NCBI RefSeq assembly: GCF_030227115.1
Contig: NZ_JASSUA010000002.1
Coordinates: forward strand, 573,655-637,654
Direction of reading: 5' to 3'
Length of the DNA stretch: 64,000 nt
Source: Marinobacter sp. SS13-12
GTDB lineage: Bacteria; Pseudomonadota; Gammaproteobacteria; Pseudomonadales; Oleiphilaceae
The notes under the pieces were generated by a model, which worked only from the letters and a program-made list of their open reading frames with translations, was not told where the DNA came from and ran no database searches. Of this stretch, positions 2,069 to 53,422 are shown in pieces. Made by a program: the position numbers and the translations under genes. Every line of letters begins with the position of its first letter. Position 1 is the stretch's first letter.

Positions 2069-2086
2069 TTGGTACCCCCGGCAGGA
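2069..2086. repeat. Distal attachment repeat
   Basis: This is identical over 18 bp to the tRNA-Arg 3' end at 7246-7263 and in the same orientation. The match stops at the next base (T here, C in the tRNA). There is no tRNA body next to it, so it is the fragment copy made by integration. Confidence 0.85.
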
Positions 2087-2196: not shown

Positions 2197-3279
2197 TCAA
2201 AGGTTTGGGTCTTGACCCTCTCTACGAATGTGATCGAGCTCCTGGAGGTACTTTGTGCCAGCCGTTCTGTTTAGTTTTTTGAACTCTCGGATTTTCCCTT
2301 CCAGGCTTCTGATTCGCTTTTCTATGGATTCTCTTGTTTGGCTAGGGTCATGGAGGTCATTTCTGAGGTGGTGAAGCATTGACCTCAACAGGTGTTTCCG
2401 CTCTTTACCGGCAGTTGGGCGGCCCGAGTTAACGATGACGTTGTGCACTCTTTGTTGTCGGTTCCGGTCCATTACCTCTGTTTTCCGAGTCTTGATCTTC
2501 AAGCCGTTAGCTAAGAATACTTTCTGCGATGCCCGGACGATCTTGTTTTTCTGTGCTGAGCTCAGTCGACAGGTGGTAGACACAACGATGTCATCCACAT
2601 ATCGGCTGTACCTGATGCCATCCTTTTCCAATTGTTGAACTATCACTGGCTCGACTCTCCATAGAGCGAGGTTTGCCAAAAAGGATGATGTAGGAGAGCC
2701 TTGTACCAGTCCGCCTTGATACGTAGTCAGTTTGGTTAGAACATCTGATACATCTTCTGAGAACAGGAAGAGGTCTCTCCAAACGGCATACACGAGCTCT
2801 TCTCGAATAGAGGGGAAGAAGTTAGTGGCATCAATTCGGATGACCGTCCCTTGTCCTGAGTGCCTTCTAGCGTTGATAAGATAGTTGGCTTCTGCTGATC
2901 TAAGTTCCGATTCCGGTGTCCCTTCTCTTGACTTCGATAGGGAGCCGGTCAGGTATGGAGGGTAATAACAGTTCCTGAGGATGTGACTGTTGACGCGTTG
3001 CAGTATTGGTTTCAGCGGTTGCTTGAGACTGAAAATTTCCCGCACAGTCCCGTCAGGTTTGCCTTCCCGCGAATGTAGCTTATGGTAAGGCCCCGTATCG
3101 GATGCAATCTTACGAAGACATTCAATGTCCGTTTGAAGAGCAGCTTCTAATGCTTCTCCGGAGGATATCCGCTTAGCTCGGTATCTAGGCGAGAGACCTC
3201 TCGGACGAAGCCTTAATGAGTTCGCTGGTGACTTGCTTGAGCTCACTGCGAGTTTCCTTTGATAGGGATGAAAGTTCAT
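2197..3279 (-). CDS. Retron-like reverse transcriptase
   Basis: This is a 360-residue RNA-directed DNA polymerase. Numbered from the ATG at 3279: motif A RIDATNFFPSI with catalytic D150; LVQGSPTSS at 191-199 (fingers/palm motif); YVDD at 227-230 with the catalytic aspartate pair; and HNVIVN at 279-284, where retron enzymes usually have a VTG..VN motif. The tail is helical and charged, with no endonuclease, maturase or protease domain, and the size fits retron enzymes. A GTG at 3246 has a better ribosome site (AAGGA, 8 bases away) and would give 349 residues; from the ATG the gene overlaps the HTH gene by 95 bases. It is the last gene of the leftward cluster. Assignment to the retrons rather than another bacterial RT group rests on the motifs and the structured leader, not on a phylogeny. 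Confidence 0.85.
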   Translation of the reverse strand: MNFHPYQRKLAVSSSKSPANSLRLRPRGLSPRYRAKRISSGEALEAALQTDIECLRKIASDTGPYHKLHSREGKPDGTVREIFSLKQPLKPILQRVNSHILRNCYYPPYLTGSLSKSREGTPESELRSAEANYLINARRHSGQGTVIRIDATNFFPSIREELVYAVWRDLFLFSEDVSDVLTKLTTYQGGLVQGSPTSSFLANLALWRVEPVIVQQLEKDGIRYSRYVDDIVVSTTCRLSSAQKNKIVRASQKVFLANGLKIKTRKTEVMDRNRQQRVHNVIVNSGRPTAGKERKHLLRSMLHHLRNDLHDPSQTRESIEKRIRSLEGKIREFKKLNRTAGTKYLQELDHIRREGQDPNL

Positions 3280-3481
3280 CACCAGATGCAAGGAAAACGA
3301 GAAGGCTGGCGGGAATTCCTAGCGCTTCGGATATCTTCTCGATCGACGCCAATGTGGGTTCCCGTTCCCCCTGAATAATGAGCGTCAGGTACGAAACTGA
3401 GATTCCTGCATCTTGAGCGAGCTTGCTCTTGGTATACCCTTTGAGCACTCTACATTGTTCAATAGCTGACCCAAGGTTCAT
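3185..3481 (-). CDS. XRE-family HTH protein paired with the RT
   Basis: This 98-residue protein has an N-terminal Cro/C1-type helix-turn-helix (about residues 4-62). The pattern is SKLAQDAGISVSYLTLIIQG then EREPTLASIEKISEALGIP, followed by SLLVFLAS and a charged helical tail. The ATG at 3481 is chosen because GAGG sits 9 bases upstream; an upstream TTG at 3523 overlapping the previous stop is the alternative. The gene follows the 84-aa gene by 38 bases and overlaps the start of the RT, so the three are probably co-transcribed and translationally coupled. It could repress the cassette, or be a retron accessory protein; HTH partners have been described for some retron types. The sequence does not tell which. 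Confidence 0.8.
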   Translation of the reverse strand: MNLGSAIEQCRVLKGYTKSKLAQDAGISVSYLTLIIQGEREPTLASIEKISEALGIPASLLVFLASGDELSSLSKETRSELKQVTSELIKASSERSLA

Positions 3482-3519
3482 GGGTTTGGTCCTCGAAAAT
3501 AGATAAGAGGTCTGGGGCG

Positions 3520-3774
3520 TCAATTCAAGTTCCGGAAGAATTCAGCTACCTCCGGAAGAACCTTCACAATGGAGCCAAGGCTGACTAGGCAATCGGTTAT
3601 CAAAGCCTGCCTTTTCGCCTCTGAAACTTCATTGCGATGTGCTGACCGGATATTCTCAATCAGCTCATCAAGTTCATTACCGACTTGACTGCTATACCCT
3701 GGCTTCCCTTTCAGCTCTTTTTTCAAGCGCGTCAACAGCGCTTCAACACTAGTACTGCTCAGTTGATCTTTCAT
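3520..3774 (-). CDS. Small helical protein of unknown function, first in RT cassette
   Basis: I do not recognise this 84-residue protein. The ATG at 3774 has GGAG 9 bases upstream (GGAGAAAGAGCAATG). It appears all-helical: a charged N-terminal half with lysine-rich (RLKKELKGK) and acidic (ELDELIENI) segments, then a more hydrophobic stretch ending in SIVKVLPEVAEFFRNLN. There is no signal peptide, cysteine pair or known catalytic motif. It is the first gene after the structured leader and is followed by the HTH and RT genes. In a retron-like cassette it is a candidate effector or an msDNA/RT-binding partner, but that is inference from position only. The short length, good ribosome site and tight spacing argue that it is a real gene. 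Confidence 0.65.
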   Translation of the reverse strand: MKDQLSSTSVEALLTRLKKELKGKPGYSSQVGNELDELIENIRSAHRNEVSEAKRQALITDCLVSLGSIVKVLPEVAEFFRNLN

Positions 3775-3821
3775 TGCTCTTTCTCCGGTTGCGACGCGGA
3801 TGCGCCTGCTCCCGATACACA

Positions 3822-4009
3822 AACCAAGTCGCTATGCCGAGAAAGGACATAGAGGATGAAGGAAGCCAGAGTCCCAGACCTCTACCTAGCAGCGTTGCTG
3901 CTCCCTGCTGCTCCCCCTCGCTACGTGGCGCTCGGCACTATGGCTAAGGTCAGCGTGCGCTGTGCGGGAGAGCTTGCCGACCCCAATGGTTGCGGGTCAT
4001 GACTTGGTT
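3822..4009 (-). ncRNA. Candidate msr-msd RNA of the retron-like cassette
   Basis: Read on the minus strand, this 188-nt leader starts with AACCAAGTC (4009-4001) and ends with its exact complement GACTTGGTT (3830-3822), matching the a1/a2 closing repeats of retron RNAs. Just inside a1 is a hairpin of GACCC/GGGTC plus CAA/TTG with a 3-nt loop (3998-3979). A 7-bp pair TGCCGAG (3937-3931) and CTCGGCA (3841-3835) closes a long irregular stem ending four bases (TAGC) before a2. That stem holds a tandem 10-mer (two copies of GGGAGCAGCA on this strand) and a perfect AGCAGC/GCTGCT hairpin (3888-3902). Order (a1, short hairpin, long stem, a2), size and position upstream of the operon fit msr-msd. The branching G was not identified, and pairing was done by eye. 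Confidence 0.5.
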
Positions 4010-4067
4010 AAAGCAATGATCAACTGTTAAAGAGCCGCTTCCGGGCGAAACACCCGTCCACACTTTG

Positions 4068-4096
4068 ATGATGCATAGAGTTTTGCTGAGAGTCAA
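4068..4096 (-). promoter_or_regulatory. Putative promoter for the RT cassette
   Basis: On the minus strand TTGACT (4096-4091) is followed after 17 bases by CATCAT (4073-4068), five and four matches to the sigma-70 hexamers. Transcription would start near 4060 and run through the structured leader into the 84-aa gene. Just upstream is a TTTTCT/AGAAAA dyad (4100-4123) that could bind a regulator. Confidence 0.35.
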
Positions 4097-4392: not shown

Positions 4393-5016
4393 ATGTACGT
4401 CAGGGCATATCTCAGAGCATCAACCAAGGAGCAGGACGCAGAGCGGGCAAGGGAGCAGGTGGAGAGTTTCGCGCAAGAGCGGGGTCTGACCATTGCTGCC
4501 TTCTATGTTGAGAACGAATCAGGGGCCAGCCTCAAACGTCCTGAGTTGTTCCGCCTGCTAAAGGACAGTAAGCCGGGGGACATTCTCTTGGTGGAACAGG
4601 TAGACCGTCTGAGCCGTCTGAACGCTGAGGACTGGGACAGCCTGAAGCGGATGATCACAGACCGTGGTGTCCGTGTGGTGGCCCTAGACCTCCCGACGTC
4701 TTGGATGATGATGAGGTCAGACGACGAGCTAACAGCCAGGATGATGGATGCCTTGAATAGCATGATGCTGGATATGCTGGCGGCGATTGCACGGAAGGAC
4801 TTTGCAGACAGGCGTAGGCGTCAGGCTCAGGGCATCAAGAAGGCCAAGGCTGAGGGGAAGTATAGGGGCCGTCCTGCTGACAGTGAGAGGCACCAAGTCA
4901 TTGCTGAGATGATCGACAAAGGGATGAGTTGGTCGCAGGTAACCAAGGCTACTGGGGCGTCACGGTCTACCATCTCCCGAGTGCTGAATGATCGCAGGGT
5001 AACGATTACGGAATGA
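4393..5016 (+). CDS. Serine recombinase (resolvase/invertase family)
   Basis: This 207-residue protein has an N-terminal resolvase catalytic domain. The nucleophile is probably Ser10 in YLRASTKEQD, followed by R-rich AERAREQ and the DRLSRL motif typical of the family. After the long helix KDFADRRRRQAQGIKKAKAEG and GKYRGRP comes a C-terminal HTH (WSQVTKATGASRSTISRVLN). The length fits small resolvases/invertases, not large phage integrases. GGAG lies 12 bases before the ATG at 4393. It is transcribed away from the RT cassette. It might resolve dimers, invert a segment, or act as a DNA-binding regulator. No matched inverted sites were found that would define an invertible segment. Confidence 0.9.
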   Translation: MYVRAYLRASTKEQDAERAREQVESFAQERGLTIAAFYVENESGASLKRPELFRLLKDSKPGDILLVEQVDRLSRLNAEDWDSLKRMITDRGVRVVALDLPTSWMMMRSDDELTARMMDALNSMMLDMLAAIARKDFADRRRRQAQGIKKAKAEGKYRGRPADSERHQVIAEMIDKGMSWSQVTKATGASRSTISRVLNDRRVTITE

Positions 5017-5729
5017 CGAAGTTACGTTGTGGGTCTGATGTCCTCCCCCCGGTCTTTTTGATGGGCTGGAGGGCATGCTGAGGCGTAACTATCAGGGTTC
5101 CTCCGGCTCTCTGTGGGCTGTTTCGTGTCCAGGGTGACCTTCTTATAATTCGGCTTCAGTAGGTGCTGTGGGCTCTCTGAGGAGGTCTGCAAGCGTAGGC
5201 GCTCCATGTTCTCAGGGACTCTGGTCTGACTCACAATTGATCAATATATCTACAGTTCTTGTTGGGAAATGACCCTCTGAAGGCCTTCTGCCGCAAGGGC
5301 TGAATAATGTCGTACCTAAGGGGAAGCCCAGAGATCATAACTATAAGTTAGGCATCTCGTTCCCTGACCACTAGTTCCGTTACCTCTCCTTCCTCATACC
5401 TATAGTCTAACTCGTGGTTAGACCCCTGGTTCCAGCTTGGAGTCAAACTACGGGCCCGTGTCTGTGGTGTTCTCCAAGTCAGTCAGAGGATGTGTTCACG
5501 AGCCTTTGCCTATGGCTGAGTAGAACCATTGAGGTCATCAGCAGTACCAGTTCAGTGACCCCTGGTGATAACTCTGGGTGTGACCCTGAGGCAGCGATCA
5601 GAACGACTGTATGCCCTTGCTCAGTGTCTTGAGCCAGAGCCCTTGTAAGTTCCTGACCTCATGAGAGGAGCAGAACCAGTTAACTATCATCTTGGTCTCA
5701 AGCCAAGCGCCCCACCTCTTGCCATACTT
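5017..5729. other. Gene-poor stretch inside the element
   Basis: I see no recognisable gene in these 713 bases; the short open frames have no credible ribosome site or family match. Present are a 10-bp palindrome ATTGATCAAT (5236-5245) and a 10-mer GACCCCTGGT repeated at 5421-5430 and 5557-5566. Rightward transcripts crossing it would end at the terminator at 5732-5771. It could hold recombinase sites, a non-coding RNA or decayed genes. Confidence 0.4.
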
Positions 5730-7115
5730 TCAGCCCAACTCTCGGTTAACCCCGTAGGTTGGGCTTTTTTTCTGACTCAGGGGTGAACTGCCGGTTGTGA
5801 GGTCTCCGACTGGAATAACGACTTTCAATAGGTCACCCTGCTTTCGCTTCAACATGCGACCTATGCCGTAGGTGTCATCCATATCCCCAGCGCCATGACC
5901 CTGAATCTCATCCCGTATGTCCTTGGTCACGTCAGCGTTACGTAGCCTGTCCTTCATCGCATGCCGGAAACTGTGGGAAGTGAGTCCCCACGGTCTCAAG
6001 CGTTTGTTCACGGCTGCCGACGCTGAGTCATTGCCCCTTGGTTTGGCATAGTTGGGAAACAACCACTCATGCTTACCACGGTGAGACGCTATGGCCTGCC
6101 TTGCTGCATGGAGAGCAACCCCGACAAGTGGAACAAAACGCGGCCTACAGTCGTTCTTGAGTGTCCGCCACTCGTTATCCTTGAGGTCGATGTGAGGTGT
6201 CTCATGGTCAAGCACAACGTCCGCCAGCTTGAGGCCTGAGATTTCGCCTACTGACGCGCCAGTCTCCAGTTGCATCAAAATTATGAGAGCAGTGGGTGAG
6301 GGGTCATCCAAGAACTTTACGACAATCTCCCTCAGTTCCGTATCACTGGGAACCTTCTTGTCCTTTGCGTCTTTGCCTTCGTTCTGGATGCTGACCGAGC
6401 GGAATGGGTTAGACCTGTTCGCCTCAGTCTCGGTAATGCACGTTTGGGCAATAGCCCTAAGCTGATTCAGTTCACGCCTGACGGTTCCTGTCGCCATGCC
6501 GTCTGCCAGCCTATGATCAATGTAAGACCTGACGTGCGAGCGTTTGAGGTCAGCGAAGGATATATCACCAGTGACCCCGACGAACTGGCTCCAGTAGCGA
6601 CGACACCGCTCGATAAACTGAGGGTCATTGCCCTTCGTGTGGTGCTGCTCGTAGTAGGTGAAGACCCCTGATAACCGTAGTTCCTGTGGATTCTGTAACC
6701 GCTTCAGGGTCTCTTGTTCAACAGGGGTCAGAAACTCTTCGACAGGTGCATGCTCGTAGGTTTCCCAGCATTGGCCGGCGTATGCCTGCCTTTTGGGTTC
6801 AGCCACCGCATCAACGAAGGAATCGGGGTCCTGGTAACGCTCAGCCATGCGGGAGGCCGCTTCTATGGTCTCACTAGGGGTCAGGCTCCTGTCCTGACTG
6901 AGTGCCGCGAACTCGGCCTTGTACGTCCGAGCCAGTCGTTCAGCTTTACGCATGGCTTCCAGTTCGTCTGAGGTCCTCAACGACTTGCGTAGGCTCTGCC
7001 TGCCGTAGTGAGACACCAGTTCAGTGGGGATGCGCATGACAAACTGCCAGACGTTGCCACGCTTCTGAAGGTAATTGGTTTTGATGGACAAGGCATAACC
7101 CAACTTCACTATCAC
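5730..7115 (-). CDS. Tyrosine site-specific integrase of the element
   Basis: This 461-residue phage-type integrase starts at a GTG (7115) with GGAG 9 bases upstream. The N-terminus (YLQKRGNVWQFVMRIP, residues 15-30) is the arm-binding-type domain found in related proteobacterial integrases. A core-binding helix region follows (about 145-245), then the catalytic domain (about 255-420). Catalytic residues seen are K320 (TLKNDCRPRFVPL), H381 and R384 (HSFRH), H407 (GHG) and Tyr416 (DDTYGIG). The usual first arginine, in TGxRxxE, is replaced: the sequence reads TGASVGEI with Ser288 there. The gene lies beside the tRNA-Arg attachment site and presumably integrates and excises the element. Its last codons overlap a plus-strand terminator. 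Confidence 0.92.
   Translation of the reverse strand: MIVKLGYALSIKTNYLQKRGNVWQFVMRIPTELVSHYGRQSLRKSLRTSDELEAMRKAERLARTYKAEFAALSQDRSLTPSETIEAASRMAERYQDPDSFVDAVAEPKRQAYAGQCWETYEHAPVEEFLTPVEQETLKRLQNPQELRLSGVFTYYEQHHTKGNDPQFIERCRRYWSQFVGVTGDISFADLKRSHVRSYIDHRLADGMATGTVRRELNQLRAIAQTCITETEANRSNPFRSVSIQNEGKDAKDKKVPSDTELREIVVKFLDDPSPTALIILMQLETGASVGEISGLKLADVVLDHETPHIDLKDNEWRTLKNDCRPRFVPLVGVALHAARQAIASHRGKHEWLFPNYAKPRGNDSASAAVNKRLRPWGLTSHSFRHAMKDRLRNADVTKDIRDEIQGHGAGDMDDTYGIGRMLKRKQGDLLKVVIPVGDLTTGSSPLSQKKSPTYGVNRELG
5732..5771 (+). terminator. Rho-independent terminator, rightward
   Basis: AGCCCAAC (5732-5739) pairs perfectly with GTTGGGCT (5758-5765), followed by a run of T to 5771. The T-run is on the plus strand only, so it ends transcripts coming from the serine recombinase side. 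It lies inside the last codons of the oppositely oriented integrase gene. Confidence 0.8.
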
Positions 7116-7157
7116 TGCATACCGCTCCTACAATGGGAACCGGCAATCTACGGCTGA

Positions 7158-7188
7158 TGTATCACGCCGTGTTGCCACTTTGTATCAC
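7158..7188. repeat. Paired TGTATCAC repeats, integrase end
   Basis: TGTATCAC occurs at 7158-7165 and 7181-7188, between the integrase start and the attachment site, in the same orientation as the pair at 2154-2173. These are probable integrase arm sites. They also overlap the integrase upstream region, so binding could repress the gene. Confidence 0.6.
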
Positions 7189-7245
7189 AGTGAGCCTATG
7201 GAATATCGTTCAAGACCTTGAAAAAGCAGGGTTTCTCGCGAAACT

Positions 7246-7263
7246 TTGGTACCCCCGGCAGGA
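7246..7263. repeat. tRNA-side attachment repeat
   Basis: This is the 18-bp copy of the direct repeat inside the 3' end of tRNA-Arg, including the encoded CCA. Insertion here leaves the tRNA gene whole. Confidence 0.85.
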
Positions 7264-7323
7264 CTCGAACCTGCTACCTTCCCCTTAGGAGGGGGACGCT
7301 CTATCCAGATGAGCTACGGGGGC
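7247..7323 (-). tRNA. tRNA-Arg (CCT anticodon)
   Basis: This 77-nt cloverleaf reads on the minus strand from GCCCCCG to CGGGGGT plus discriminator A and encoded CCA. The anticodon stem TCCCC/GGGGA encloses the loop CTCCTAA, giving anticodon CCT, which reads AGG. The T-arm is GCAGG TTCGAGT CCTGC. It is the insertion site of the neighbouring element. Confidence 0.95.
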
Positions 7324-7407
7324 ATCTCTGCAAGAAGGGCGGTATGATAGCGGCCTGAAGCCTGCGGCTCAAGGTGTGTTGCGGATTCGTCTTTTCCGGG
7401 GGGTGTT

Positions 7408-8115
7408 TTGTCTGAATCGCTTTCGCTGAGTGTCATTGTGCCTGTATGGCGCGAGGCCGCTTCCATTCAGTCGTTTCTGCAATCCCTGCAGCAGGTGCGC
7501 GCCGCGGGGCATGAAGTGATTGTTGTGGATGCGGGCAGTGACGATGGCACTACGGATCTGGCTGGGCCCTGGTGCGATCAGGTGCTGACCGGGGGCAAAG
7601 GCCGGGCCTTGCAGATGAATGCGGGGGCGGAGGCGGCGCGGGGCAATGTGCTGTTGTTTCTGCATGCCGACACTCTGTTGCCGGATACCGCGATTGATCA
7701 CCTTGAGCGCTTTGTCGATAGCCCGGAACAATGGGGGCGTTTCGATGTACGCCTTAGTGGCCAGCGTGCGATTTTCCGGGTGGTGGCCTGGTTTATGAAC
7801 CGGCGCAGCCGGCTGACGGGGATTGCCACGGGCGATCAGGCGATGTTTGTTCGTACCTCGGTGTTCCGGGCGCTGCAGGGGTTCGCTCTGATTCCGCTGA
7901 TGGAAGACGTGGAATTGAGCAAACGGCTTTGCGGCCTTTCACGGCCCTATTGTGTCGGCGATCCGGTTATTACGGATAGTCGGCGGTGGGAGCAGGGGGG
8001 TGCCTGGCGCACCATTTTTCTGATGTGGAGGTTGCGCTGGCGGTACTGGCGGGGGGAGTCCCCGGAGTCCCTGGTGGCAGCCTATCGGGCGGATGTACGA
8101 CATGCAGATAGTTGA
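7408..8115 (+). CDS. Family 2 glycosyltransferase, TIGR04283-like
   Basis: This 235-residue protein starts at a TTG (7408). It has a GT-A fold N-terminus: SVIVPVWREAASI, then VVDAGSDDGT, GKGRALQMNAGA and the LHADT metal-binding motif. It matches the short glycosyltransferases often paired with the TIGR04282-type transferase, which here overlaps its 3' end. The true substrate is not known for most members. There are no clear transmembrane segments, so it is probably cytosolic. The overlap with the next gene implies co-translation. Confidence 0.85.
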   Translation: MSESLSLSVIVPVWREAASIQSFLQSLQQVRAAGHEVIVVDAGSDDGTTDLAGPWCDQVLTGGKGRALQMNAGAEAARGNVLLFLHADTLLPDTAIDHLERFVDSPEQWGRFDVRLSGQRAIFRVVAWFMNRRSRLTGIATGDQAMFVRTSVFRALQGFALIPLMEDVELSKRLCGLSRPYCVGDPVITDSRRWEQGGAWRTIFLMWRLRWRYWRGESPESLVAAYRADVRHADS

Positions 8116-8740
8116 TCCGGATTCGGTTCTGGTCATGCAGTTTGCCAAGTGGCCGGAGGCGGGCCGGGTTAAAACCCGCCTGATGCCGGAGCTTGGCGCG
8201 GAAGGAGCGATGAACGCCCATGTGCGGCTCAGCCTTGCCGTGCTTGAGAACCTGGTTGCCAGTGGTTATGACGTCCGGTTTTTGTGGGACCGGCCGCTGG
8301 ATACCATTCCTGACGCTGCCTCGCCCATTAATGAACGGCTTGAATACTATGGCGTGGGCTGCGACTGGCAGCAGGGTGATGTTCTGGGCGAGCGCATGAC
8401 CCTGGCGCTGGACACAGGTCTTCAGAAGGCGAGCAAGGCAGTGATTGTGGGCAGCGATTGCCCGTCGGTGGATGCCGAATATGTCCGCCTGGCGGTTGCC
8501 GCGCTGGACGAGGTAGATGTGGTGCTGGGGCCGTCGGACGATGGCGGCTATGTATTGATCGGTGCCCGCATAATTGTTCCGGATATGCTGGCCGGAGTGG
8601 CCTGGGGTACCGAGAACGCGCTGGAGCAGACGTGCGATCGGCTCACCCGGGCCGGGCTGACCTTCGCTCTGCTTCCGGAAAAATGGGATGTGGATGAGCC
8701 TGAAGACTGGCGCCGGTTTATTGGCCAGTCTTCAGGCTGA
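8093..8740 (+). CDS. TIGR04282-type nucleotidyl/glycosyl transferase
   Basis: This 215-residue protein of the DUF2064 family has the N-terminal pattern VMQFAKWPEAGRVKTRL, then VGSDCPSVD and LGPSDDGGYVLIG. The fold is GT-A-like, related to nucleotidyltransferases such as CofC. The start at 8093 overlaps the upstream glycosyltransferase by 23 bases; an ATG at 8102 is the alternative. Members are often found next to TIGR04283 proteins, as here. The substrate is not established from sequence. Confidence 0.85.
   Translation: MYDMQIVDPDSVLVMQFAKWPEAGRVKTRLMPELGAEGAMNAHVRLSLAVLENLVASGYDVRFLWDRPLDTIPDAASPINERLEYYGVGCDWQQGDVLGERMTLALDTGLQKASKAVIVGSDCPSVDAEYVRLAVAALDEVDVVLGPSDDGGYVLIGARIIVPDMLAGVAWGTENALEQTCDRLTRAGLTFALLPEKWDVDEPEDWRRFIGQSSG
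8697..8738. terminator. Perfect 15-bp hairpin at a convergent gene end
   Basis: AGCCTGAAGACTGGC (8697-8711) pairs perfectly with GCCAGTCTTCAGGCT (8724-8738) around a 12-base loop. It spans the last codons of the rightward transferase gene, whose stop is at 8738-8740, and ends 15 bases before the stop of the leftward peptidase gene. There is no T-run, so its use as a terminator or as an mRNA-stabilising stem is inferred. Confidence 0.5.
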
Positions 8741-8753
8741 AGGCTGAGTTGCT

Positions 8754-11618
8754 TCAGGCCCCGGGTACGCTCGGTCGTTGAACCAGTTGTTCAATGGCGC
8801 TGGTGTTGTCAGCGGCATCATCAACAGTGAACACGCGCAGGGCTTTTTGCCGTTCAATCACCTGATTTTCCAGGGTTTCGATCAGGGTTTCAAGGTTTAC
8901 GCCGTTAATGGCCTCCGCCAATTTTTCCCGTGAGTCAAAGTCGGTCTCGCCGCGGTCGATCTCGCGCCAGTAACGCTCCGATATCTCGCCCAGGCGGCGG
9001 TCCTGTTCCATCAACTTGCTGAGGACCGCCTGTTTCTCCCGTTGCAGATCCTGTTCAGACATTTCTGACAGGGTACCCTTGAAGGTTTTCGAGAACTCTC
9101 GCACTGCCTTGTCGATCTGCTCACTGCTGGCTTCCGGAGACTGCACCACGAAGCCCAGTGCCGGAGTTTCGAGCATTTCGAACGGCGTTGCGTAGACGAT
9201 GTAGCCAAGCTGGCGGTTGGTGCGAAGTTCTTCGTAGAAGGGGCTGCTGATAATCTGGCCCAGCAGGCGGAAGGCAGCCCGTTCCTCGAAGCTGGTATTG
9301 TCGCCCTGTACATAAAGGGTGTAACCAGTATCCGGGTGGTCCACCTCCAGTGGCAGTGCTGTCTCGTCTTCCGGCAGCGACCGTACGCTGCTACGCTCCA
9401 CGGTTACCAGTTCACTCTCATCCAGCACCATGGCGTGAACCCGTTTGGTGAGGTTGAGTGCCGAGGCGTAGCTCATGTTGCCGTGGGTGAGCAGAACCGG
9501 GTCAACCTGGGCCAGGAAGGCATCGGCAAAGGATCTGAGCTCATCCAGGGTGACTTCCCGGGCCGCCCGGAGTTTTTCTTCCGTGCTCCAGGCGCCTTCG
9601 ATCAGCAGGGTCTGGATGAATTCGGACGTCTGTTGAACCGGGCGTTCCTTGGCCTTGTTCAGCAGTCGGTCGATCATTTTCTGACGGGCAATGTTGAACC
9701 GTTGCTCGGTCAGTTCCGGCTCCGCCACCTGGGTCAACAGGCGTGCCATCAGTGTGTGCAGTTTGTCGCTGTAACCGCCAACCCGGATGGTGATGCCGCG
9801 AAGGTGGGGATAGATGCTGTAGTCCAGCCCGGCCAACTGTGCGGGGTAGGCCCAGGCGTTCACGTTGGTGTTGATGGCGTCCACCAGAAGGGTGGAAAGC
9901 ACATTGCTGCGGGCAGACGCCAGGGTGGCCGGGGTGCGCAGGCTCAGATAAACATTGGCCTTGGGGGTTTCAAAGCGGGTATCCCTGGCGTACCACACCT
10001 CCATGCCGCTGATGGTTCCCATGGAAACCGGCTTGTCCATGGTTGGGCCGGAGATCATCCCCAGTTCCTCGGGGATAAACGGGTTCTCAAGGGGCAGTGC
10101 CAGGCTCGCTACCAAAGGGTTCTCATCAGCTGTTCTGACGGCACTGGTATCGAGTGGCTTGATTTTGAAGGCGGTGTCGTACCACTGGGTCAGGCTGGGG
10201 TTCTCGATGTCTGGCTCAGGTTCCAGCACCGAAACCAGCACATTATCCGGCGTAAGACGCGCCAGGATGGCCTGGTACTGGTCCGGTGCGTAATCCTCCA
10301 TCATCCAGGGCGCCTGCAGGACATCCTCCGGTGCCACGTGCCGCATTTGCCGCGACAGGTGCATGACCTCCTGAACCGGCTGGTTTTTTTCCCGGAACCG
10401 GAAATCGATTTGTGCCAGCTGTTTCATTTCTTCAAAACGATGCCGGGCAATGCCCTCGTTTCGCACCTTGTCGATGTAGGCAAAGGTGAGTTCAAGGATC
10501 TTCTCCTGCTCTTCAAGCCCTTCCGGCGTCAGCGACATGTTCAGTTCCAGCGTGGCTTCTTCACCGGTATCCATGCCGCCACCCGCAGACAGACTTTCCA
10601 CAAGTCCGGCCCGTTTCAGTACGTCGAACAGGCTTCCCGGCCCTTCATGGCCGAGCAGGCTGGCGACGTAGTTGGCAGGTTTGTCGCGGTAGTTTTCCTC
10701 TTGAGAAGGAATCGGGAACGTCAGCGTCAGGCTGCGTATGTCCTTGAGGGCATCCACCGTTACTTTGGCTGGCAGTCTGTCCGGGCTGAACAGTGGCTCA
10801 TCATGAACCTCCGCCGTCAGGTTGCGGTTTTCAATGCGGTCGAACCGCCCCCGCACCATGGCTTCCAGTTCATCCAGCGATTGCGGGCCATAAACCGCCA
10901 GTGTCATCAGGTTGGACGAGTAGTGCTGCTTCCAGAAATCAATCAGGTCTGGGCGCAGGGGGCGCTCATCGGTGTTTTCCAGGGTGGTCAGGTTGCCCAC
11001 GGCAAACTGGTTGAAGGCATGTTCCGGGTTACTGATGGCCTTCTTTACGGAGTAGAAACGGCGGCCGTCTTCCTTCTGTTTGGCACTGAACTCGGAGTGC
11101 ACGGCCCGGCGTTCACGGTCGACCAGCTCCGGTGTGAATAGCGGGGCGGAGAACTGTTCGGCGAAGCGGTCCAGGGCGTCATCCAGGTGTTCGGCCTGAA
11201 CATCGAAGAAATAGTTGGTGTCCTGGAACGCGGTAAAGGCGTTATGGCTGCCGCCGTGGCTCTTGATGAACTGCTGGTACTCTCCCGGGTCGGGGTATTT
11301 TTCCGTGCCCAGGAACAACATGTGCTCAAGGAAGTGGGAGAGGCCTTCCCGGTCGGCGGGGTCATCGCCGCTGCCGACGGCTACGTTCATGGAAGCCGCC
11401 GCCTTGTCAGATTCTGGCGCGGATATCAGCAGCACCCGAAGCTGGTTTTCCAGCTCGACGTAGCGGTATTGGTTGTCGTCGTTCGGGCTTTTGACGGGGG
11501 AGGTGTTGGCCAGTACCGCTGAGCTGAAGGCAAGAAGAAGTACCAGAATAAAGCCTTTCTTCAGGCCAGGGAAACCGTGGGCAAATCCATGAATGCCTGG
11601 GCGCATAGTGCCTCTCAT
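8754..11618 (-). CDS. Pitrilysin/insulinase-family zinc metallopeptidase (M16)
   Basis: This 954-residue M16 peptidase has the inverted zinc motif HFLEH (H95, E98, H99) followed by MLFLGTEKYPDPGEY, and ERRAVHSEF downstream with the third ligand. The large four-domain layout fits pitrilysin/protease III. A hydrophobic stretch at residues 22-38 (FILVLLLAFSSAVLA) is a signal peptide, so it should act in the periplasm on small peptides. ATG 11618 has no clear ribosome site; an ATG at 11606 with AGAGG just upstream is the likelier start. It ends face to face with the transferase gene. Confidence 0.9.
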   Translation of the reverse strand: MRGTMRPGIHGFAHGFPGLKKGFILVLLLAFSSAVLANTSPVKSPNDDNQYRYVELENQLRVLLISAPESDKAAASMNVAVGSGDDPADREGLSHFLEHMLFLGTEKYPDPGEYQQFIKSHGGSHNAFTAFQDTNYFFDVQAEHLDDALDRFAEQFSAPLFTPELVDRERRAVHSEFSAKQKEDGRRFYSVKKAISNPEHAFNQFAVGNLTTLENTDERPLRPDLIDFWKQHYSSNLMTLAVYGPQSLDELEAMVRGRFDRIENRNLTAEVHDEPLFSPDRLPAKVTVDALKDIRSLTLTFPIPSQEENYRDKPANYVASLLGHEGPGSLFDVLKRAGLVESLSAGGGMDTGEEATLELNMSLTPEGLEEQEKILELTFAYIDKVRNEGIARHRFEEMKQLAQIDFRFREKNQPVQEVMHLSRQMRHVAPEDVLQAPWMMEDYAPDQYQAILARLTPDNVLVSVLEPEPDIENPSLTQWYDTAFKIKPLDTSAVRTADENPLVASLALPLENPFIPEELGMISGPTMDKPVSMGTISGMEVWYARDTRFETPKANVYLSLRTPATLASARSNVLSTLLVDAINTNVNAWAYPAQLAGLDYSIYPHLRGITIRVGGYSDKLHTLMARLLTQVAEPELTEQRFNIARQKMIDRLLNKAKERPVQQTSEFIQTLLIEGAWSTEEKLRAAREVTLDELRSFADAFLAQVDPVLLTHGNMSYASALNLTKRVHAMVLDESELVTVERSSVRSLPEDETALPLEVDHPDTGYTLYVQGDNTSFEERAAFRLLGQIISSPFYEELRTNRQLGYIVYATPFEMLETPALGFVVQSPEASSEQIDKAVREFSKTFKGTLSEMSEQDLQREKQAVLSKLMEQDRRLGEISERYWREIDRGETDFDSREKLAEAINGVNLETLIETLENQVIERQKALRVFTVDDAADNTSAIEQLVQRPSVPGA

Positions 11619-53016: not shown

Positions 53017-53065
53017 TTTAGCCCTGAGGGGCTGATAGTTTGACCACCGAAAAAAGGTATACCGT

Positions 53066-53263
53066 ATTCAGGTAACGCTTTTTCGCGGTATCGCCGCAGA
53101 AAAGCTTAAAACGGGAAGTCGGTTAAAGTCCGACGCTGCCCCCGCAACGGTAAGCGAGCTAAAGGCAATCATAAAAGCCACTGTGCGTAATGCATGGGAA
53201 GGTGATTGCCCCGGATACGCCTCAAAGGCTGATCCACTCGCAAGCCCGGAGACCGGCCTGAAT
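53066..53263 (+). ncRNA. Cobalamin (AdoCbl) riboswitch
   Basis: The 406-base leader before btuB contains the conserved GGGAA (53114), the B12 box-type sequence GCTGCCCCCGCAACGGTAA (53136-53154) and GCCCGGAGACCGGCC (53244-53258). P1 is formed by ATTCAGG (53066-53072) and CCTGAAT (53257-53263), perfectly complementary. It should turn down btuB and following genes when adenosylcobalamin is plentiful. Confidence 0.95.
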
Positions 53264-53422
53264 ACACACCGGAAGTTGCGGAGGGCGACGGCGGTGGGTG
53301 AGTTGTGTCGGCTTCACACCTGTACACTGACTCGTATCCTGCCTCCCCCCAGTCTCACTCTCGAGCTCCGCAACATAATAAACACCATGCGGGTGCGCAT
53401 GGTTTACAAGCGAGTGCTGATT

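Follow-up and report, generated by a model that had tools for sequence, protein, structure and literature searches.

A gene cluster in Marinobacter sp. SS13-12 places a reverse transcriptase (RT) beside two small proteins, raising the question of whether it encodes a retron and, if so, whether that retron belongs to a known type. A first-pass annotation had proposed a retron partnered by both small proteins, with an RT that may lie outside the familiar clades. We followed up this proposal by comparing the locus with its relatives.

Layout of the locus

The locus occupies the minus strand at positions 4096-2197 of the window, the whole 64,000-nt stretch of DNA analysed here. In minus-strand order, a promoter-like site and a ~290-nt leader precede the genes for an 84-aa protein, an XRE HTH protein and the RT. 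The leftward cluster of three genes was recovered as open reading frames (ORFs) at the positions that the first-pass annotation had given, and the leader extends upstream past 4009, where that annotation had placed its end, to the promoter-like site at 4096-4068. The main components are as follows.

2197..3246, minus strand: retron RT, 349 aa, with NARRH, YVDD and HNVIVN motifs, read from GTG 3246; a longer ORF opens at TTG 3291
3185..3481, minus strand: XRE-family HTH protein (HTH_VI), 98 aa, putative autoregulator, from ATG 3481; the ORF opens at TTG 3523
3520..3774, minus strand: 84-aa small protein (SP), divergent SP_VI-family member and candidate effector, with a hydrophobic C-terminal stretch at residues 58-76
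3777..4066, minus strand: putative leader of the transcript plus msr-msd RNA, running from close to the start site up to the SP ribosome-binding region; similar layout in 20 loci, both ends predicted

The RT probably starts at GTG 3246. The database entry for this locus (P0004) is 349 aa long, and three full-length near relatives (P0006, P0009 and P0011) start at the same alignment column as this codon; because of this start, the RT and HTH genes would overlap by ~60 nt.

The same three genes are found in the same order in Oceanobacter kriegii, with identities of 43% for the small protein, 59% for the HTH protein and 40% for the RT. Together with the E-values of the RT_VI and HTH_VI models given below, this shared order puts the three-gene cluster far beyond chance. 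Pseudomonas, Alteromonas and Psychrobacter plasmids also carry the combination of small protein, HTH protein and RT, as do further genomes; a DNA search of plasmids returned no match.

The reverse transcriptase belongs to the type VI clade

A protein database search returned 220 RT homologues at E ≤ 0.001, and RT_VI was the best of 79 matching PADLOC families (E = 2.8e-60), with RT_V second and RT_IV third. RT_V scores above RT_VI in three of eight other clade members scanned (L038, L039 and L066), so the best model alone is not decisive. The top RT_VI score among ten RTs scanned (343 bits) belongs to L011 (5452-6405), where neither HTH nor SP was found by profile and whose RT, on a very long branch, is not part of the clade.

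We built a quick maximum-likelihood tree from 57 RTs and used as outgroup three RTs that exceed the cut-off of a group II maturase model; DGR and Abi/UG RTs are absent from it. One clade of 30 rows (SH-aLRT 98) is made up of the window, 19 further SP loci and ten proteins from the database, and within this type VI clade the window falls in a nine-row sub-branch (SH-aLRT 99). The three confirmed group II RTs are placed far outside, which excludes the clustering with group II introns that the annotation had named as evidence against a retron. Clades adjoining the 30-row clade contain loci with type V effectors (cold-shock, Se72-like) and type IV effectors (membrane, Ec48-like). The RT clades of the three types are thus neighbours but their effectors differ, and no SP, HTH_VI-like gene or boxA leader was found in the type V and type IV loci examined.

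Both YVDD and HNVIVN occur in the RT as claimed, and the numbering of D150 is correct when counted from ATG 3279. A further retron motif, NAxxH, which had gone unmentioned, is present as NARRH, and its pattern was detected in 13 of the 20 clade loci. VTG itself is replaced by HNVIVN; because strict VTG is missing from 16 of the 20 clade loci, HNVIVN is no mark of a new clade, and VTG is not treated here as defining for type VI. The RT therefore does fall within the familiar clades: it belongs to type VI in the published classification, for which PADLOC already holds SP_VI and HTH_VI models.

It is extremely improbable that the RT is instead a group II-intron, DGR or Abi/UG enzyme, with the two small genes as unrelated neighbours. 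Weak matches to group II, Drt2, Drt3a and AbiA models are seen, but retron models score far higher (119.8 bits for one of them versus 48 bits for the group II model). The tree, which covers retron RTs and the confirmed group II outgroup, contradicts a group II origin, and the three-gene order is preserved at ~40% RT identity.

Profile searches of whole genomes, with type IV and type V relatives counted, gave an RT match in 9 of 124 genomes of the genus (E ≤ 1e-40) and 15 of 390 of the order (E ≤ 1e-30). At E ≤ 1e-45, 7 of 369 genomes from the class matched, as did 8 of 398 from the phylum. Three loci of the same genus (L012, L013 and L014), typed by eye from the neighbouring sequence, have cassettes that resemble type V (with a cold-shock protein) and type IV (with a membrane protein).

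Two small partner proteins

A protein search returned three relatives of the small protein, 73-90% identical. We then made a profile of nine such proteins (those of eight loci plus P0003), which matched 12 loci outside its building set, with E-values of 1e-23 to 4e-2 in a small ORF set; two of these (L036 and L038) are near-copies of loci used in the building and three (L068, L037 and L069) are weak. Every match at E ≤ 0.1 fell in loci of the type VI RT clade. The profile matches exclude that homologous loci lack the small proteins, a result that would have counted against the annotation.

Two SP_VI models of PADLOC match 15 and 11 of 20 aligned family members, and the family is therefore PADLOC's type VI small protein. 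The window SP itself matches no PADLOC family at E ≤ 0.01 (the best is PDC-M14B, at 0.016) and neither SP_VI model even at E ≤ 1; the SP of L009, 42-43% identical to it, matches SP_VI at 2.2e-4. By the family profile, the window SP is thus an SP_VI family member too divergent for the PADLOC models. Hydropathy plots place a hydrophobic stretch near the C terminus in nearly every member. Peaks that indicate a membrane span usually lie higher than those of most members, which reach 0.8-1.6 on a 19-residue scale (exceeded only in L065, L068 and L069), and no membrane span is therefore established. Searches for remote homology in PHROGs, Pfam and the PDB gave weak matches, many to designed helical bundles, and were set aside; as a reading only, the protein is probably helical.

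For the HTH protein, HTH_VI is the best PADLOC model (E = 2.5e-22) and Pfam HTH_3 matches at 7.4e-13. The best solved match of the family profile is C.BclI, the controller protein of a restriction-modification (R-M) system (E = 3.7e-15), and the profile matches both controllers and repressors.

As effector we tentatively favour the small protein, at odds slightly short of even, because the general retron pattern has an RT-msDNA complex restraining a toxic partner and because the HTH protein resembles regulators. A less probable but still serious alternative makes the HTH protein the effector or its neutraliser and the small protein an assembly or antitoxin factor. The small protein has the size of many antitoxins and the HTH protein accompanies it in 18 of 20 loci, as that alternative would expect; against it, the HTH profile is that of controllers and repressors, and no HTH was found by profile in L037 and L069, where a leader is present and a weak SP-like gene (E = 5e-4 and 0.043) is kept between leader and RT. 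The HTH protein therefore looks dispensable.

According to a 2021 paper (PMC8541194), which cites Mestre et al. 2020, type VI comprises an RT, a DNA-binding protein and a small auxiliary protein. The window shares with other type VI retrons its RT clade, HTH partner, gene order and, by the family profile, small-protein partner; it differs in an SP beyond the reach of the PADLOC models and in its well-supported RT sub-branch. Because the best models for RT and HTH protein are RT_VI and HTH_VI, the SP family matches SP_VI and the RT falls in the type VI clade, we assign the locus to the known type VI, as a marine member that is divergent but ordinary by class. We put the probability that it is a type VI retron at roughly 0.9. 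The proposal of a retron with two small proteins as partners is thus borne out by the RT_VI, HTH_VI and SP_VI-family evidence; its claim to novelty falls, since the type is already classified and the partners already have PADLOC models.

The leader carries a hairpin followed by a boxA-like element

For 20 type VI loci we compared the 400 nt that precede the small-protein gene. A leader was scored as positive if it had a hairpin with a stem of 6 bp or more and a loop of 3-4 nt and if, no more than 8 nt after it, GCTCTTTAA or GTTCTTTAA occurred, one mismatch being allowed. The corresponding features of the window are as follows.

4042..4056, minus strand: 5' leader hairpin CGGGTG-TTT-CGCCCG, in the boxB position; hairpin and boxA test positive in 17 of 20 loci
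4025..4035, minus strand: boxA-like GCTCTTTAACA, also in the host rRNA operon

A hairpin followed by boxA was found in 17 of 20 loci, compared with a mean of 0.04 loci and a maximum of 1 over 100 rounds of shuffling; L028, L035 and L070 failed the test. None of 17 other retron loci scored, of which 16 are fair controls because L005 is a truncated clade relative that lacks its own leader. The letters of the hairpin stem vary across loci with pairing preserved, although paired counts from this comparison are not evidence alone because the hairpins were selected for pairing. In the window, hairpin and boxA follow soon after the inferred start site.

The 11-mer GCTCTTTAACA occurs three times in the genome: in this leader, in the 16S-23S spacer of an rRNA operon and in an apparent protein-coding stretch. 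In E. coli rrn leaders, a hairpin and then boxA come directly after the promoter. The variant in L027 is GTTCTTTAAAA, which PMC7862264 gives as the boxA preceding a natural CRISPR array; in the same source, a boxA before a synthetic CRISPR array raised precursor RNA about tenfold. The type VI leaders resemble those of rRNA operons and CRISPR arrays in boxA sequence and in its position heading a long untranslated RNA, and differ in that a retron lies downstream and antitermination is putative. A literature search of partial coverage found no paper pairing a retron with boxA or antitermination, and no description of these leader features.

A different account of the same segment, in which the hairpin and CTCTTTAA form a conserved part of the msr recognised by the RT and the likeness to boxA is coincidental, is unlikely but has some force: the segment is found where the retron RNA begins, at its 5' end, and is conserved across an entire RT clade, and an RT-specific signal would likewise be missing from the 17 other retron loci. 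Against this stand the 11-nt identity with the boxA of the host rRNA operon and the hairpin-boxA order after the promoter, as in the E. coli leaders. The segment also lies outside the helix described next, whereas the msr of known retrons lies inside the corresponding a1/a2 helix.

A closing helix with cognate-specific arms

The first-pass annotation had described the leader as structured. Comparison of loci backs this description, whereas folding energy does not: single-sequence folds of the whole leader were not more stable than shuffles (z = 0.73 and 0.04), single-sequence folding was rejected as evidence for this reason, and RNAalifold on sub-groups of loci gave no common full structure. 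In the minimum-energy fold of the window, the boxA stretch at 4035-4029 pairs with the purine-rich SP ribosome-binding region at 3782-3776. The same fold contains a 9-bp helix between two arms.

4001..4009, minus strand: a1-like arm AACCAAGTC (AACCAAGUC), paired with 3830-3822
3822..3830, minus strand: a2-like arm GACTTGGTT (GACUUGGUU), paired with 4009-4001

Across the 20 loci, cognate arms outperformed arms swapped between loci, with means of -17.5 versus -13.3 and a permutation p of 2e-5, a value that includes the analyst's choice because windows and scoring were changed after the sequences had been inspected; an earlier duplex-energy test with wider windows gave p = 0.03 only. The advantage also holds with 17 dereplicated loci. 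The window is among seven loci in which none of the 19 swapped partners equals the cognate one, and in each of L027, L037 and L068, 11 or more of the 19 swapped partners are as good. For some loci (for example, L026 and L036), the best-scoring helix differs from the one drawn by eye. As far as pairing can tell, this is the expected a1/a2 closing helix of a retron RNA; the msd and the priming or branching guanosine were not located.

A possible controller-like operator at a promoter-like site

Upstream of the leader lie two overlapping features.

4068..4096, minus strand: promoter-like site, with -35 TTGACT at 4096-4091, a 17-nt spacer and -10 CATCAT at 4073-4068; 9 of 12 in a consensus scan
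4082..4096, minus strand: operator-like inverted repeat TTGACTctcAGCAAA, overlapping the -35; 10 of 12 positions, the left half alone exact

The -10 of this site is weak and promoter-like sites in total are not above shuffles; a TTGACT-like -35 lies ~60 nt upstream of boxA in many relatives. The exact repeat ACTnnnAGT is present in 10 of the 20 type VI loci (mean 0.5 and maximum 3 in 500 rounds of shuffling), at -55 to -58 from boxA in six, the place of the -35, and at -76 to -81 in four. Anywhere in the 400 nt, it occurs in 2 of 17 other retron loci. The window, with GACTctcAGC as a half match, is without the exact repeat, like nine more of the 20 loci; those without it are both HTH-less loci (L037 and L069) and 8 of 18 HTH-bearing loci, the window included. 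The operator consensus scored 191 versus 152.7 expected (s.d. 3.5, maximum 163), which is circular evidence because the consensus was derived from the same loci. A palindrome test free of any consensus gave 96 versus 86.4 for a gap of 3 (s.d. 2.2, maximum 92), and 94, also above a maximum of 92, for a gap of 1.

The operators of C proteins are usually GACTtatAGTC (PMC3115060). The likeness between C proteins of R-M systems and the type VI regulator thus covers both the HTH profile, with C.BclI first, and the operator, GACTnnnAGTC resembling the TTGACTnnnAGTmAA of type VI leaders. The two also differ: C proteins usually have a pair of operators, whereas type VI loci have one, at the -35 or ~20 nt upstream, and C proteins serve R-M systems whereas the HTH partner here is a retron.

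The poor -10 and half-matching operator of the window might indicate that this copy is decaying and has lost msDNA production. This is improbable, given that all three frames are open, that the frame is kept in relatives of the SP (73-90% identity) and of the RT (73-86%), and that the a1/a2 helix is perfect over 9 bp.

The retron as probable cargo of an integrative element

The genomic context of the locus is a 5.2-kb element, placed by its repeats in a tRNA-Arg gene.

2069..2086, no strand: att core repeat, 18 bp, at the distal end of the element; identical to 7246-7263
4393..5016, plus strand: serine resolvase/invertase of the element (Pfam Resolvase, E = 1.2e-24)
5730..7115, minus strand: tyrosine integrase of the element (Pfam DUF6538, E = 1.9e-17; Phage_integrase, E = 3.2e-9)
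7246..7263, no strand: att core repeat at the 3' end of tRNA-Arg(CCT), a perfect 18-bp repeat
7247..7323, minus strand: tRNA-Arg(CCT), the integration site (ARAGORN; Rfam tRNA)

Integrase, resolvase and retron all lie between the two 18-bp repeats. An empty site is seen in the relative L082, in which the flanks (90% and 86% identical) join at the att repeat, and likewise in L083. Another relative, L101, carries a sibling element at 4465-10188 in the same tRNA-Arg site, with an integrase stretch of 81% identical DNA; its cargo is another resolvase, an RNase HI and a DUF2971 protein, with no match to the retron. The retron therefore looks like exchangeable cargo, and it is likely to be the defence cargo of the element. 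Elsewhere in the window, a cobalamin riboswitch was detected at 53055-53275 (Rfam, 102.4 bits).

A proposed model for this type VI retron

Several features from which a model can start are read directly from the DNA: the leader-SP-HTH-RT order, the type VI clade, the boxA-type leader, the cognate closing helix, and the att repeats with their empty site. In the model, a single promoter would drive the whole cassette. The HTH protein would bind the inverted repeat at the -35 and so adjust how much of itself and of the cassette is made, in the manner of R-M controller proteins; on arrival of the element in a new cell, such control would keep the toxic part from preceding its neutraliser. At the boxB/boxA leader the Nus antitermination complex would be recruited, allowing RNA polymerase to traverse ~250 nt of untranslated RNA to the genes. 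The RNA would then fold through the a1/a2 helix, and the RT would prime on it and make msDNA. RT-msDNA, perhaps with the HTH protein, would keep the SP inactive until phage attack on the msDNA or the RT freed it; the freed SP, small, probably helical and with its hydrophobic C-terminal stretch, would halt growth of the infected cell.

Leaving aside the identity of the effector, we regard this account as a whole as fairly probable, and we lean, a little less firmly, towards its boxA and controller-like regulation. That the type VI class is wired unlike other retrons, combining an HTH protein on a promoter C-box with Nus-dependent boxB-boxA transcription of the msr-msd, is a bolder and rather doubtful proposition. 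A literature search of partial coverage found no paper testing a type VI retron, and the small protein of this type has no name beyond 'small protein'.

The divergent SP sequences described here would let defence finders detect members that are now missed. The boxA and controller-like wiring shared by type VI is the part worth following. Should the boxA prove genuine, retrons as well as CRISPR arrays would be defence RNAs that make use of antitermination of the rRNA kind. The host Nus antitermination pathway is one that phages such as lambda commandeer; if the proposed wiring is true, type VI retrons would be tied to the very pathway that phages exploit, and disturbed Nus-dependent transcription could shift the ratio of msDNA to the small toxic protein and so act as a trigger.
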